DNA from: Lota lota
Taxonomy: Eukaryota > Chordata > Actinopteri > Gadiformes > Lotidae
Length of the DNA: 64,000 nt
Assembly: GCA_026745465.1 (NCBI GenBank)
Contig: JACYXH010000812.1
Span: forward strand, 2,587,954-2,651,953
Direction: 5' to 3'
The notes under the pieces were generated by a model that was not told the origin of the DNA, searched no databases, and was given only the letters and a program-made list of their open reading frames with translations. The translations under genes were made by a program, and so were the position numbers. Position 1 is the stretch's first letter, and the number at the start of each line of letters is the position of its first letter. This document shows positions 388-38,496 of the stretch, one piece after another.

Positions 388-19188
<18,801 letters not shown>

Positions 19189-24335: not shown

Positions 24336-27300
24336 TTACTCTGCCAGTGCCAGGTTTTTGGACTGGATCTTCGCTAGATGATCTGATATACCAGCCTCGA
24401 CTTTGTCACACTGGGCCAGGAAATCCTAAAAAATAAATAAATGGAGGGTTACTCTTACTAATGTGTTCATGCAGTATACAGCATTAGAGTTTGAATCATG
24501 TGGCAATAATAGGAATAACCATGATTGGATGTAAAACTAATGGTAAACATGCATCACAGGTCAATGCCATATGATGCCAGGTGATCGTTTACCACCACAT
24601 GGTTCATATATTGGTCAATGCCACGTTATTCTCATTCATACAAGCCCATTGCGTGCCCCTTTGTAATTTCAAGATTGTAATGGGGTTAGAAACACATTGT
24701 TTTATTAAAAGGAACATAGCGGTGGCTATCAGGAATAAATTATCATTTTTGAAAACAATTTAGTGTTGGTGTGAATTCCAGCTTCACCGTTGCCTGTTAT
24801 TACAAAGTAGTACAAAATAATAAATTACCGTATGCAACTGTAACTGTCGTTCTTAATACCGTAATTTCCGGACTATAAGCCGCTACCTTTATCCCACGCT
24901 TTGAACCTCGCGGCTTAAACAATGACGCGGCTAATTTATGGATTTTTCCCGCTTTCACAAGCTTCATGCCGCCAAAAAACGGAGCAAAAAAACACATTCT
25001 GTGACGGTGCTCAGTTTTTTGGCGGCATGAAGGTTTCATTAGACCAATGAAATTGCCGAACGGGTTAAGGTGAAACAATGTAACTTTTTAGTTTACTGTT
25101 TAGATTAAATCGAGCGCGCTCAAACTTCCCATCATTCTGATTACGGTAGTCATTCTGTCACCCTCATCATGGCAAAGACACGGAGAAATGCATATGATGC
25201 AGCTTTCAAGTTGAAGGCGATCGGTCTGGCTGTTGGAAAAGGAAATAGAGCTGCTGCACGGGAGCTTGGTCTTAATGAGTCGATGATGAGACGTTGGAAA
25301 CAGCAGCGGGAGGAATTGACTCAGTGCAAAAAGACAACTAAAGCTTTCAGAGGGAAGAAAAGCAGATGGCCCGAACTAGAAAATGAGCTCGAAGACTGGG
25401 TCAACACACAGAGAGCAGACGGCCGAGGTGTTTCAACTGTGCAGATCCGACTGAAAGCCAAAACAATCGCCACCGCAATGAAGTTTGAGGATTTTAGAGG
25501 TGGACCATCGTGGTGTCTCAGATTTATGAGACGTAAAGGCCTGTCCATCAGGGTACGGACAAGTCTGTGTCAGCAGCTCCCTCCCGACTACGAAGAAAAA
25601 GTTTCAAACTTCCGCAAATTCACTGATGCAAAGATAGCGGAGCATTCCATTGGCCCGCACAACATCATAAATATGGATGAGGTTCCTCTGACGTTTGACC
25701 TGCCACTCACTCGGACTGTCAACAGGAAAGGCGAATCATCCGTCACGCTGAAAACAACTGGGCATGAAAAAACGCACTTCACCTGTGTTCTGAGCTGCAT
25801 GGCATCGGGAGAAAAGCTTCCACCGATGGTGATTTTTAAACGCACGACGATGCCAAAAGAAAAATTCCCGAGAGGAATTGTTGTGAAAGTCAACAAGAAA
25901 GGATGGATGACGGAAAGCCTAATGCATGAATGGCATACGGAGTGTTACTGCAAGCGACCGGGAGGATTCTTTCACAGGGACAAGGCATTGCTCGTTTTGG
26001 ACAGCATGAGGGCCCACATAACAGATTCTGTGAAAGAAGCCATCAAGAGGACAAACTCAATTCCAGCTGTGATTCCTGGGGGCACAACAAAGTATTTGCA
26101 GCCGCTCGACATCAGTATAAATCGTGCATTTAAGGTGGCGCTCCGTGTTCAGTGGGAGGCTTGGATGACAAGTGGGGAGAAATCCTTCACTAAAACGGGC
26201 CGCATGCGAAGAGCAACTTATGGTCAAGTCTGCCAGTGGGTTCTGACAGCGTGGAGCATTGTCAAAAAATCCACTATCATCAACGGGTTTCGAAAGGCTG
26301 GACTGCTGCGTGTTGAAGAGGGCAGCATGAGCTCAGCGGGGAATTTGCCTCCGGATGAAAGTGACGAGAGCGACAGTGAAAACGATCCAACATCGGATGA
26401 AGCAATTCTGAGGCTATTCAACTCCGACACCAAAGGAGATGATTTCAGTGGTTTCAGTGCACAGGAGGAGGAAGATAGTAACCAATGACTTTCTTGGTAG
26501 GCTACTGTTTACCGCAATTTTTTTGTTGTTGTTACAAGCCATGTTTCGTTAAAGCCTGTGTAACGTTAATTTGTTTCAATGTACCGGTAGGCACCTGCGG
26601 CTTATAGACATGTGTGGCTTATTTATGTTCAAAATAATTGTTTTTAAAAAATTCAGTGGGTGAGGCTTATATTCAGGTGCGCTCAATAGTCCGGAGATTA
26701 CGGTAAGTGGTAATAATAGTAAGTGTATTAACAACCTATATAAGGTCGTGGAGGATATTAGGGAAGCTTTCTGACAATCTAGCCACTGGAAACAACTCTA
26801 CGCAAAGTAATTTGATTGGTTGGATGCTGCTGCTGTTGTGTTGCTGACAGTGTTATTAGCCTAGTATGTGCAGCAATTGCATGAGCATTTAGTTACAGAA
26901 TGAAAAGTCTGATGGGGATGGGAAATGAAAAAATAAATAAAAACTTACCTGAACTGTTTTCACAAGTCCCTTTTTCTTCATTCGACAGTCATTAAAGTTT
27001 TCTGGTAAGCTCTGTTGAAAATATAACATAATTTATATTTATTTAGGTAATTACATGATATCATATTCCCCGGGATAAAGCTGTAAGATGGTTTAAACAC
27101 GGGGGAGTGGCAGAACGTACCACGGAATCTATCTGTTCCAGAATCTTCATAAACTGCTCTGAAGCGACCTTGACTCTATGGTCCAGTTTGCCCAGCGCCT
27201 CCGCTTGAAGGTCCTTGGCGAGGAAGCCCTGCAGAACCAACATGCCATGTCCTCTCAGTTAGGTGGACATAAACAAACATCCAATCTGTTGATATCCATG

Positions 27301-33640: not shown

Positions 33641-35553
33641 CACAGACAAAACACTGCCTCCAGCACCACTGCATAGAAAAGTGGAAAACCGCTGCTGCCA
33701 AAACCCAATTATGGTGACGACGAGCTGCGATGAATGCTCAAGCAGCCGTCTATAGAGTCTGAGAGGCAAATGCTAATGAAAAGTGTGGTACAAGGCCACT
33801 GACACAAGTCTTCTCAACCTCCAAGCTCCATGTGTCTCTGGCTCCAGCCATTGTGTTTCACCATGGAAACGCTACCTCTCTGTATCCAGAGGAAGAGACA
33901 CATAGCCTTCAGTCAAGGCTGTGCTTGATCATATACAACTAATGTAAGGATATAGGTTGTAGGTGGTTGTAGGTGAAATGATGGGCTTGAAATGAGGATG
34001 TTGGAATCTGCATGTCTCACAGTGTGTCATCAATATTTCACCTCCCTAACAGCATTCTCTTTCCAAGTAAGAAATATTACACTCGCTGCTATTTGGTTTT
34101 TCATGACTTTTTATTGAGTGCATCTCAACCCAACTGTGACAGTCAAAGAGTACACAGCAGTAAAAAGTACAAAATGGATGCGGACAGGAAAGCATAGGAA
34201 TGTACTAAGTGATGGAGGAAGAGTGTTGTCCTCGTTGTTTTGTGGATGGATTAGGGTTGAAATAAAACCACCACAACCAAAGTTACCCATTTGTAAATAT
34301 GTCATATTATTACATTACATGACATCATATTTATATAACAATAATAACATAATTTTGATAACATCATAATAACATGATGATATTGTAAGGATAAAGTACA
34401 CAAAACAAGGTCATAATATTTAACGTTTTCACCAATATTATTTTTTAAAGAGATAACAATCTGTTTTGAATGGTATTCTAAATTAATAACACAACCCTAT
34501 TCTTAAAATTGGACTATCACATTACAAGAAGCAATTAAGTGCTCATGGTCAACTTTTTCCATGTGAAAATGGGACAATATATACTATTAAACCCAACTAT
34601 AACTGTATATATTCATCAAACTGTAACTGTACTGTACCTAAAACTGTGAAAATGCACAACATTGAAAAACACACTACACTGAACATTGGACAGGATTTAT
34701 AGTATATGCTCCACTATATCTTGTTAAACACCACCTCAGAGACCTTCTATCAAGTTTTAAAATTCCCAAACTTTTTAATAATAGTTAAACATCTTTATTG
34801 AGTGTACAATATCAAATTGGATTGTTCATTGTTTATCATCCGTCAGCAGATGGAATTGGATGTTGGTAGAAAGTAAATATATATTGAAGGTGAGAGATGC
34901 TCTATTCCCCACATAGTTTTAAATGTCAGAGTGTTCTGCCTTTGCTGCCCTTCTGTCTTTCCTACCCTCACAGGGCAGTTGAATGCTAGATTAAAGTAGC
35001 GTATCCAGAGAAGCATGCAAGCAGTATTCATCCAATTAAAACACTTGATTCTTTCGATGTTGCTTTTTATTTACTTATGATTTTTGTCTCCCACCTTACC
35101 TTTTAAATTATATTTTAGTACAAAAAGGTAACCAGGCTACAGAAGATGTTTTTCAATTTTTATGAATAATTGTTGTTAAGCAATGCATTGGCAGCAATAT
35201 GAACATTTTCAATTTGTTCTACATGAGTAAATAAAAATACTTTCTGTAATTTACGTTCTTCACAATCATATTATAGAATATCACACACTGAGTATGATGA
35301 GTGGCTATATTCTACTAGTAGCAGGGGCGGTTCCAGGTCATTGGACAAGGCGCAAGGCGCAGGGACAAGGCGCATCCTACAGGGCACCTCAGGAACTCAA
35401 TAACGTTTGAGTTCTTTATAGATCTGTGAATGATGAATAAGCAATAAAGAAACCCCCAGCCCTCTAGTGGTCAAACTGCGGTGGTCTGAGTCGTGCCCAG
35501 GTCGTTAGAGTAGTCCTCTGCATGCTGGTCAGGGGTGACGGACATCTCCACAG
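33191..35553. other. Intergenic stretch between chmp5 and oprk1
   Basis: It holds (TTA/TTG)n and (ATA)n repeats at about 33366-33438, a 36-bp poly-C run joined to (CA)n at 33570-33637, and AT-rich sequence that probably includes the oprk1 3' UTR on the right. TTTATT motifs near 34090 and 34794 would be poly(A) signals on the minus strand. No coding exon was recognised. Confidence 0.45.
33570..33637 (+). repeat. Poly-C (36 bp) joined to (CA)n
   Basis: The longest C run in the window, between chmp5 and oprk1. Confidence 0.97.
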
Positions 35554-38496
35554 CTAGTCATACGGGACGCCCCTGCCTCCTGTCGCCACGGTTACCGGCA
35601 GGGCAGGAGTGCTCTCTGAGTGTGCTGCGGACGCGGCTGCTGCCCCCGCCACCGAATCCGTCCCGGCCAGCCCCCAGGCCCCAGGCTCCGGGGACACAGC
35701 AGAGTCCCTGAAGCACCTCTTGAAGTTCTCGTCCAGGAAGGCGTAGAGGATGGGGTTGAGGCTGCTGTTGGTGTAGCCCAGCACCACGCAGAAGAAGTAG
35801 GCCGCCATCACCGCCGTGGTCTCGGGCACGGCGGGCACCAGCACCTTGACCAGAATGAAGATGTGGATGGGGGTCCAGCACACCACGAACACCGCCACCA
35901 CCACCAGCACCAGCCGCGCGATGCGCCGCAGGTTGCGATCCTTCTCGCGCGACCCAGACAGCATGCGCACACTCTTCAGCCGCCGGAGCATCAGCGTGTA
36001 GCAGACGCTGATGACGACTAGCGGCACCACGAAGGCGAATACAAACACGCAGACCTTCATCAGGGTGTCCCAGTAGGTGTAGGGTTCGGGAAACTGCAGG
36101 GCACACTCCGTGTTGCCTGCGGTGTGTTGACAGTGACATGGATTAGCCTACAACCTATTTCTGTACTCGCTGTAATAAGGTGCTTGCACACTGCCCCAGA
36201 AAATACCAATACCCAACTTTGGAATGTTGGCCAACACCGATTTGGACATGTTCCCCAACTAAACAACAGCCAACAACGGGTATGGCACACTGGCCTGGTG
36301 TTGGGTCTGCCGTTTGTTGGGGCACTATTAGTTAGTCGCTATGGACATACACAATAGTAGTAACAGCACCGTAGCAAAATCACTGCATCTTTAAAGTCGC
36401 CTATGAGCCTAAGCGCCCTGACCTCTACAGGAAACCAAGATATTGATCAACCAATCTAAAATCCCTTTTTCCCACTGTGGAGGGTCTGTGGTTGATGTCT
36501 GGTTCAAGCAGTCTCCCCTGTCCCGAGTCAGACTGATTGGACTCTGGGGCTGGATGAGACTGCACACCTGTGGTGCAGCCGACACGCACTCAAGGAAAAA
36601 GAGTACTGACATGTTAGCATTCACCACCTGCTCGGCTTTTAACATCTTGCCAACCCTTAAATAAAGGGAGTTTCACCAATATCTACCTGTTCTCTGTGTT
36701 AGTAAAAGATCTGATTCAGATTCCTTATAAGAACATTACCCCAAACCTTTTCGCTGTAGCCTTTTGACAGACAATGCTTACTCACCACCTGCGATGATGA
36801 AGACCATATTTTTTACATTTGCTCTCAACTACATACACCTTTAAAAGTGAGATAATGCAAATACTTGCAGATGCATGCTACTATACATCATGTTAGGTGC
36901 ACATATGCATTCGATTAGAATATAATACGATTTTATTGTCCAGCCTGGATCAGAAAGGTGCTTTTGGCCTCATGTATAAGAGATATCTAGAGTACATTAC
37001 ATACAGACAAACATCACATCAAACATTGCAGAAGTTTGATTGCAGCAGTTCATCAGGTGGTATTTAAAGGTGCTCTGGGTGTAGGATGTAGTTTAGTAGA
37101 TATTCGTATTTGCAGTTATTATTTGAGCGTAATCTGTTAGAAAAGGGTTACCGTTATGGGTCTTCGTGCTGCCCAGGATCATGGCGGGGATGCCGGCGGC
37201 GGAGGACAGCGCCCAGATGAGCATGTTGATGAGCTTGGCCTTGAGGGGCGTGCGGAAGTCCAGCGCCTTGACGGGGTGGCACACGGCCACATAGCGGTCC
37301 ACGCTCATCATGGTGAGGGTGAGGATGCTGGTGAACATGTTGTAGTAGTCGATGGAGATGAACACCTTGCAGATCACGCGGCCGAAGGGCCAGGAGTGCA
37401 GCAGGTAGTCAGTGATCTGGAAGGGCATGGTGGTGGTGACCAGTGCGTCGGCCACCGCCAGGTTGAAGATGTAGATGTTGGTGGCGGTCTTCATCTTGGT
37501 GTATCTGTAGGGCGAGGGGGAGAGAGAGACCAAGGTGCGAAAGGGTAGAGTCCGCACACTGTGTACTGCTGCACCCCAAGGTGTTTATTTCCCCCACCGA
37601 TGAGAACTAACGTTCCGATCCCATTGGATCTGGTCCCTGAACGTTATTCCGAATGGGATTGAAACGTTGACATTGTTTTAAATGGGGTAATTAAAACACC
37701 TTAGGAGCAATGCACCGCCTGAGGGTTCTTCTTTTTCATATGTAGCATTACCTCACTTGTCTGACAACTGCATAACATTGGATGTTCCTGTCTATCTACC
37801 TTCTACACTGAGACTTGAGGGCAATAAACAACGCATCATGAAGAGCTAGGGGAGGGAGGAGGGGATTTTTTTAATGACAAGAGGAAACGACATGTTGAGA
37901 TAGTGGCCGCTAATTGAGGGATCTAAACATTCACGTGATCCTCCCAGCGGGGATAACGCAGGTAGACGTACACATCCCATGTATGTATGCATGCATGCAC
38001 AAGTGGTGTGCACACATACAAGCACATGCATAGGTGAGGGATACCTTCGATTAAATGAGAGGAGAGAACGACATGTACAGATCTCTGCACCCAGTGAAGT
38101 GTGTTTATATCAGTTTCAGAGAATCCGTTTTGCTCACATGTATATGTTAGGCCTATACAACCAATGAATATATATATATATTGGTTGTAACTATATAGGG
38201 CTAACATAACATACATAAATATGTGTACTAATAAAATCAACTCACCTAATGATGACATACATAACCAGGCAGTTTCCCACCAAGCCCACCACGAACACAA
38301 TAGAGTACACTGCGGCTATGATGGGGATTATGGGCGACATGAACTCCGGCTCGGCGTTCCATGTGTCGTTCGCTGTGTAGTTGAACAACATTTCGTCCGA
38401 GAAGTCAGGTTGCCAAGTTAAGTTCGGCCCGCACTCCTCGGGGCGGCCGAACGGACACCTGTCCTCTTTGAAGATGTGCACGATAGCGCTGTCCAT
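35554..38496 (-). CDS. oprk1: Kappa-type opioid receptor (GPCR) with an aberrant C-terminal tail
   Basis: Class A receptor for dynorphin-type peptides, coupling to Gi/o. Exons in coding order: 38246-38496, 37152-37504, 35554-36116. Phases 2 and 1 match the conserved opioid receptor introns, giving 388 residues. The N-terminus has Asn25, Asn39 and Asn43 glycosylation sequons. Also visible are [20 protein letters not shown] (TM1), Asp103 (LAVADAL), Asp136 (SIDYYN, ligand amine anchor), DRY (VDRYVAV), [11 protein letters not shown] in TM6 and NPILY in TM7. TM1 and TM6 are kappa-like rather than mu- or delta-like, and the neighbour atp6v1h supports this. Odd points: Lys292 where mammalian kappa has Glu297, Asp116 where kappa has Val118, few acidic residues in the second outer loop, and a tail after CFRD that no longer resembles opioid receptors, apparently from a one-base shift. 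Confidence 0.92.

Follow-up and report, generated by a model that had tools for sequence, protein, structure and literature searches.

A readthrough signature marks the apparent ancestral frame of a kappa opioid receptor tail interrupted by a one-base loss in the Lota lota assembly

Introduction

Readthrough of a UGA stop followed by CUAG has been described for the opioid receptor genes OPRK1 and OPRL1. For OPRK1, Loughran 2014 reports that GUA predominates as the last sense codon, that the stop is always UGA and CUAG universally conserved, and that the extension almost always has exactly 28 residues (PMC4132726). A later paper, in a passage connected with OPRK1 readthrough, gives a figure of about 4-5% (PMC12233894). 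A further paper, in its passage on the subject, proposes readthrough as a possible feature of OPRK1 and OPRL1 and says that it was, in 2020, unreported for OPRD1 (PMC8159799). Here we describe the kappa opioid receptor gene, oprk1, of the gadiform fish Lota lota. It lies in a stretch of 64,000 nucleotides (assembly GCA_026745465.1, contig JACYXH010000812.1, forward-strand positions 2,587,954 to 2,651,953), which we call the window and whose own numbering is used throughout. In the assembly the conserved parts of the receptor tail, together with a complete readthrough signature, stand in a frame next to that of the receptor.

Results

Past the conserved KRCFRD, the open frame of the last coding exon continues into an unfamiliar 49-residue tail, SAVSPEP...GVPYD, which is closed by a TAG (35556-35554). 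In the neighbouring frame the sequence is CCVPGAWG...SSRVRST...GRPV, up to a TGA (35560-35558). The cysteine after FRD, the SRVRxT motif and the PV end are therefore all present in the assembly, but out of frame with the receptor. Between the GAC codon and the TGC codon that flank the site, the remaining bases are one short of a codon (Table 1). An earlier note on this DNA had described both readings (GVPYD at the end of one; CCVP, SSRVRST and RPV before TGA in the other), had recognized the kappa tail pattern in the second and had proposed that one base is missing. The reading of the frames and comparison with human tails bear this out, as does an independent signature of GTA-TGA-CTAG and 28 codons, which had gone unnoticed in that note. 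On sequence grounds, the neighbouring frame is the ancestral one, and the stretch from 35704 to 35701 lacks one base.

We take the neighbouring frame as ancestral because GTA-TGA-CTAG, exactly 28 further codons and a second stop together make up the OPRK1 readthrough signature. All four published OPRK1 sequence features (GUA, UGA, CUAG and 28 residues) are found in this frame. GTA-TGA-CTAG has a single match in the window, with 0.10 expected, and the TAG that closes the open frame sits within the CTAG of this motif. The shorter TGACTAG (35554-35560) likewise occurs once, against about 8 expected from dinucleotide shuffles; alone it is not improbable in 64 kb, and its location is therefore what matters. 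An open run of at least 28 codons is, by itself, found after 13 of 45 control stops. Taken together as a predicted readthrough module, these features fix the ancestral frame independently of tail similarity.

Tail similarity was scored against two queries. The human kappa query was FCFPLKMRMERQSTSRVRNTVQDPAYLRDIDGMNKPV, which is found in the PDB; the mu query was the tail of a PDB mu chain, a construct. With 5000 shuffles, the lowest possible p was 0.0002. Against the human kappa tail the neighbouring-frame tail reached 31, where shuffles averaged 16.1 (p 0.0014); against the mu construct tail it reached 38 (p 0.0002). The other two frames behaved like shuffled sequence against these queries: the open-frame tail scored 14 (p 0.66) and 19 (p 0.29), and the third-frame tail 17 (p 0.37) and 20 (p 0.23). 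As a yardstick, three intact opioid-receptor tails of this genome score 48-62 against the human kappa tail in the right frame and 11-19 in wrong frames; the neighbouring tail, at 31, was scored in this comparison without its broken first codon. Against paralogue tails of the genome, the neighbouring-frame tail gave p 0.012 with locus L002 and was not significant with L003 (p 0.69) or L004 (p 0.07). The open frame is unremarkable in itself, since 49-codon open runs are expected in 32% of Markov sequences of the same composition.

The tail in the neighbouring frame also improves the match to known receptors. When it was attached to the receptor with an X at the break, the phmmer score rose from 196.8 to 203.2 bits (+6.4) for the kappa chain 9v6o_R, from 187.6 to 199.4 (+11.8) for the mu chain 23so_M, and from 186.5 to 206.0 (+19.5) for the mu construct 8qot_A. 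The gain was small for 9wsv_R (192.8 to 194.0, +1.2) and 8ef5_R (187.4 to 191.4, +4.0) because these matches stop shortly past the break.

We also examined the other opioid receptor genes of this genome. L002 (G000:C826, about 6936316) and L003 (C473, about 5057044) have their best PDB matches among delta receptors, with scores of 277 and 280 bits; mu and kappa receptors reach about 249 and 233. L004 is of the nociceptin type (nociceptin 241, kappa 213, mu 210 and delta 203 bits). All three read FRDFC or FREFC in frame, with a full codon at the position of the oprk1 break. Each carries TGA-CTAG at its stop, followed by 36, 31 and 34 open codons in L002, L003 and L004, with ends ISTTEV, ISTTEF and QITAL, respectively. 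The codon usage of these extensions is coding-like, with scores of 0.68 to 0.75 per codon. This is above all 45 controls, each of which is the stretch that follows the stop of another receptor frame (mean -0.42, maximum 0.45). TGACTAG stands at none of these 45 stops. The extensions of the two delta-type genes, L002 and L003, resemble each other (p 0.0003), as do those of kappa and L004 (p 0.0003). The remaining four pairs gave p 0.01 to 0.19, the kappa extension being weakly similar to that of L002 (p 0.03) and not significantly so to that of L003 (p 0.19).

A mu-like gene, recognized by eye (L038 and L081; G000:C802:8329000-8334900), has exon 2 and the start of exon 3. The exon 3 part runs as far as LSGSK, and the GT that comes next points to an intron within the third intracellular loop. 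Beginning 1,285 bases beyond this point, the assembly shows N in 212 bases of L038 and throughout L081, so that the tail and stop context of the mu-type gene lie outside the readable sequence. The TGA-CTAG module is present in all four opioid receptor genes with a readable end, two delta-type genes among them. The pattern suggests that readthrough may be older and wider in the opioid receptors than in the cited papers.

In the PDB the product of the last oprk1 exon has its best match with kappa receptors (202.8 bits, E 3e-59), the best scores for the other types being 194.1 (mu), 175.3 (delta) and 164.8 (nociceptin). By homology, the minus-strand three-exon gene is that of the kappa opioid receptor, oprk1. 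Its splice dinucleotides and the rest of the receptor outside the tail are intact, and the seven membrane passes are accounted for, in the last exon by homology and in exons 1 and 2 by reading. The coding part of human OPRK1 exon 2 is of the same length as exon 2 here, 353 nucleotides, by the figure given in a passage of PMC8159799. Stretches matching ATP6V1H lie within 44-59 kb of the window on the same strand as oprk1. We take ATP6V1H to be the neighbour of OPRK1 in the human gene order as well. Against the assembly of 575,287,041 bases in 867 contigs, the last exon has one full-length match; the next three matches are partial, with 74-76% identity, and lie at paralogues. With this sole full-length match, oprk1 appears to be single copy in the assembly, and a second functional copy or alternative haplotype was rejected as the source of an intact tail.

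Table 1. Coordinates of the oprk1 exons, the break and the features of the two frames in the window
Feature	Position	Strand	Remarks
oprk1 coding exon 1	38246..38496	-	ATG to GT donor
oprk1 exon 2	37152..37504	-	353 nucleotides, AG...GT
oprk1 last coding exon, as assembled	35554..36116	-	Open frame to TAG 35556-35554; best PDB match kappa-type
Site of apparent one-base loss	35701..35704	-	Between the GAC (35706-35704) and TGC (35701-35699) codons
49-codon open-frame tail	35557..35703	-	SAVSPEP...GVPYD; against human kappa and mu tails no better than shuffles
47-codon kappa tail, neighbouring frame	35561..35701	-	CCVPG...SSRVRST...GRPV; human-tail homology
GTA-TGA-CTAG	35554..35563	-	Last sense codon, UGA stop and CUAG readthrough context; neighbouring frame
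28-codon readthrough extension, ending TTAV	35474..35557	-	Neighbouring frame
Second stop (TGA) of the extension	35471..35473	-	

Two further features were seen elsewhere in the window, both on the plus strand. An intact frame of 439 codons at 25169-26488 has DDE_1 and Tc5-type DNA-binding domains and is presumably a pogo/Tigger-like transposase. At 2746-16000 there is a series of MAM-like and LDL-receptor-like exons, of which one MAM domain was a search hit and the rest were read by eye; it probably belongs to a MALRD1-like gene.

Discussion

A proper ending of this gene would consist of FRD, one codon that is now short of a base, CCVPG...SSRVRST...GRPV, a UGA in CUAG context and a 28-residue extension. 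In a normal gene most ribosomes would stop at the UGA and produce a tail ending in PV. Published human reporter data lead us to expect that a minority would read through and produce a longer tail that ends in a class I PDZ-like sequence. With the base absent from the assembly, the tail would be replaced on paper, and the readthrough stop and extension would fall out of frame.

We consider it rather likely that the base loss is a consensus error of the assembly and that the fish makes a normal receptor. In our estimate of the causes, the greater part of the weight falls on such an error, a lesser part on a real and recent loss, and very little on anything else. The shifted frame runs without a second lesion through 47 and then 28 codons, with motif and exact length kept. 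Because it is undamaged in an otherwise constrained gene, the loss would be either an artefact or very recent, and this near absence of damage favours an error. The tail is 74% G+C and contains four runs of 4 or 5 Gs and one run of 4 Cs. G+C-rich sequence with G-runs can be hard to polish. The surprising part of the locus is probably an assembly matter.

Several results weigh against a consensus error. No other frameshift came to light in a scan that aligned 76,302 bases of 67 receptor-like loci and that recovered 100 of 126 planted deletions; the assembly is thus not obviously full of frameshift errors. The 67 loci were drawn from 75, with L005-L008, L011, L012, L014 and L015 omitted as second copies of the places of L016-L023. 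The break site also lies outside any long homopolymer. By codon score, the neighbouring frame is the best of the three, but the signal is weak: the kappa tail has -0.237 per codon, where the tails of L002-L004 have 0.53 to 0.73, and its extension has 0.134 per codon, which 2 of 45 controls reach, where those of L002-L004 have 0.68-0.75. None of the 45 intact receptor ends used scores as low as the kappa tail (their lowest is -0.16), nor does a further receptor, L010 (-0.13). With a tail-trained leave-one-out model the kappa tail scored -0.076; 3 of 45 intact ends were as low and 3 of 90 off-frame values as high. This weak codon signal is the one result that fits a real and somewhat older loss.

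These points have their limits. All planted deletions lay between 20% and 85% of the way along frames of 300 codons or more, and the oprk1 break itself was not flagged, so the scan is blind to variable tails. We estimate that, taken at face value, it bounds such errors near 5 per 100 kb (95%), which still permits up to about a 6% chance per gene of this length and so leaves room for an error here. Somatostatin-type receptors L009-L011 and L013 were considered as frameshifted and rejected, their gaps of roughly 170 bases or more being taken as introns; four inward-rectifier genes with short frames, likewise rejected, look intron-split. As for the codon signal, a glycine-rich, fast-evolving tail could explain its weakness equally well as decay, and motif, length and open frame would hardly be expected to survive a long decay. 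Codon usage was rejected as sole proof of the frame, since the signal is too weak.

A genuine absence of the base from this individual or species, as a recent frameshift allele, is possible but in our view less likely. The receptor would then keep its seven membrane passes and end in a new 49-residue tail rich in Ser, Thr, Ala and Pro; the cysteine that follows FRD, the PV end and the readthrough isoform would all be lost. The clean result from the 67 scanned loci and the codon signal of tail and extension, lower than that of the paralogues, suit such an allele, and a loss limited to the C-terminal tail might be tolerated. Soundness of the assembly elsewhere speaks for it as well. Among 31 inward-rectifier (IRK) domain hits, 18 cover the whole or nearly the whole model in one frame and 13 are partial, with an internal stop in two of the 31 rows. 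ATP6V1H is matched by 11 stretches in two frames, with none in the third, that together cover nearly the whole subunit. Against a recent allele stand the tail and extension frames themselves, which have no second lesion and keep GTA-TGA-CTAG, the 28-codon length and SRVRST. Moreover, the absence of a single base from one assembly is weak support for the idea that a conserved receptor has undergone a fixed change. Doubtful, too, is the combined proposition that UGA-CUAG readthrough with a PDZ-like extension is ancestral to the opioid receptors, delta included, and that both the normal kappa tail and the readthrough isoform of this fish were lost through one base in a real and recent event.

A new tail shared by the whole lineage, with all relatives using the SAVSPEP frame and the neighbouring frame left as a relic, is highly improbable. 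The 49-codon open frame and the weak codon signal in both frames would agree with it, but the open-frame tail resembles neither kappa nor mu tails, and an old relic would hardly keep the motif, an extension of exactly 28 codons and freedom from internal stops. Programmed ribosomal frameshifting, with a slip after FRD into the neighbouring frame making the normal tail, is barely credible: that frame is open across the last exon and a -1 slip would lead to the normal tail and the readthrough context, but no X XXY YYZ heptamer was found in coding register at 35700-36060, the three paralogues with a full codon need no slip, and we know of no case in opioid receptors, no search aimed at one having been made. 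A mini-intron was rejected. The 150 bases round the break hold six GT...AG pairs whose length would move the frame (3n+2, at least 22 bases), starting from the GTs at 35716 and 35695; none of the six restores the codon after FRD, and no GTAAG or GTGAG donor was found in these 150 bases.

If a consensus error is the cause and the base is missing in the assembly only, a kappa receptor annotated automatically in this species would carry a false ending, and the case would show that a readthrough signature can reveal the true frame. If the loss is real, a vertebrate would be living with a kappa receptor that lacks its tail signals and readthrough isoform. The membrane core would be kept, and the cysteine after FRD, which by analogy we take to be a palmitoylation site, would be gone together with the PV end and the isoform. 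This would be a natural experiment on tail function in the sole kappa receptor of the fish. PDZ domains of EBP50/NHERF-1 bind the C-terminal of kappa and other receptors, which is said, in the passage concerned, to direct membrane trafficking (PMC2219988). The more lasting result is the TGA-CTAG module across opioid receptor genes, those of delta type included.

Compared with human OPRK1, the fish gene is alike in having a cysteine after FRD, SRVRxT, the PV end and an exon 2 of 353 nucleotides. The human kappa tail presumably lies in the last coding exon, as here. The two differ in that the fish assembly places the conserved parts that follow FRD in the neighbouring frame, and that the middle of the fish tail is glycine-rich and longer. 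The module resembles the UGA-CUAG readthrough of OPRK1 and OPRL1 in the portion of Loughran 2014 that describes it, with GUA-UGA-CUAG and a 28-residue kappa extension (PMC4132726), but in the assembly studied here the entire module is out of frame with the receptor. In contrast to the statement on OPRD1 in PMC8159799, as it stands in the passage cited, both delta-type genes of this genome carry TGA-CTAG, and their extensions are similar to each other.
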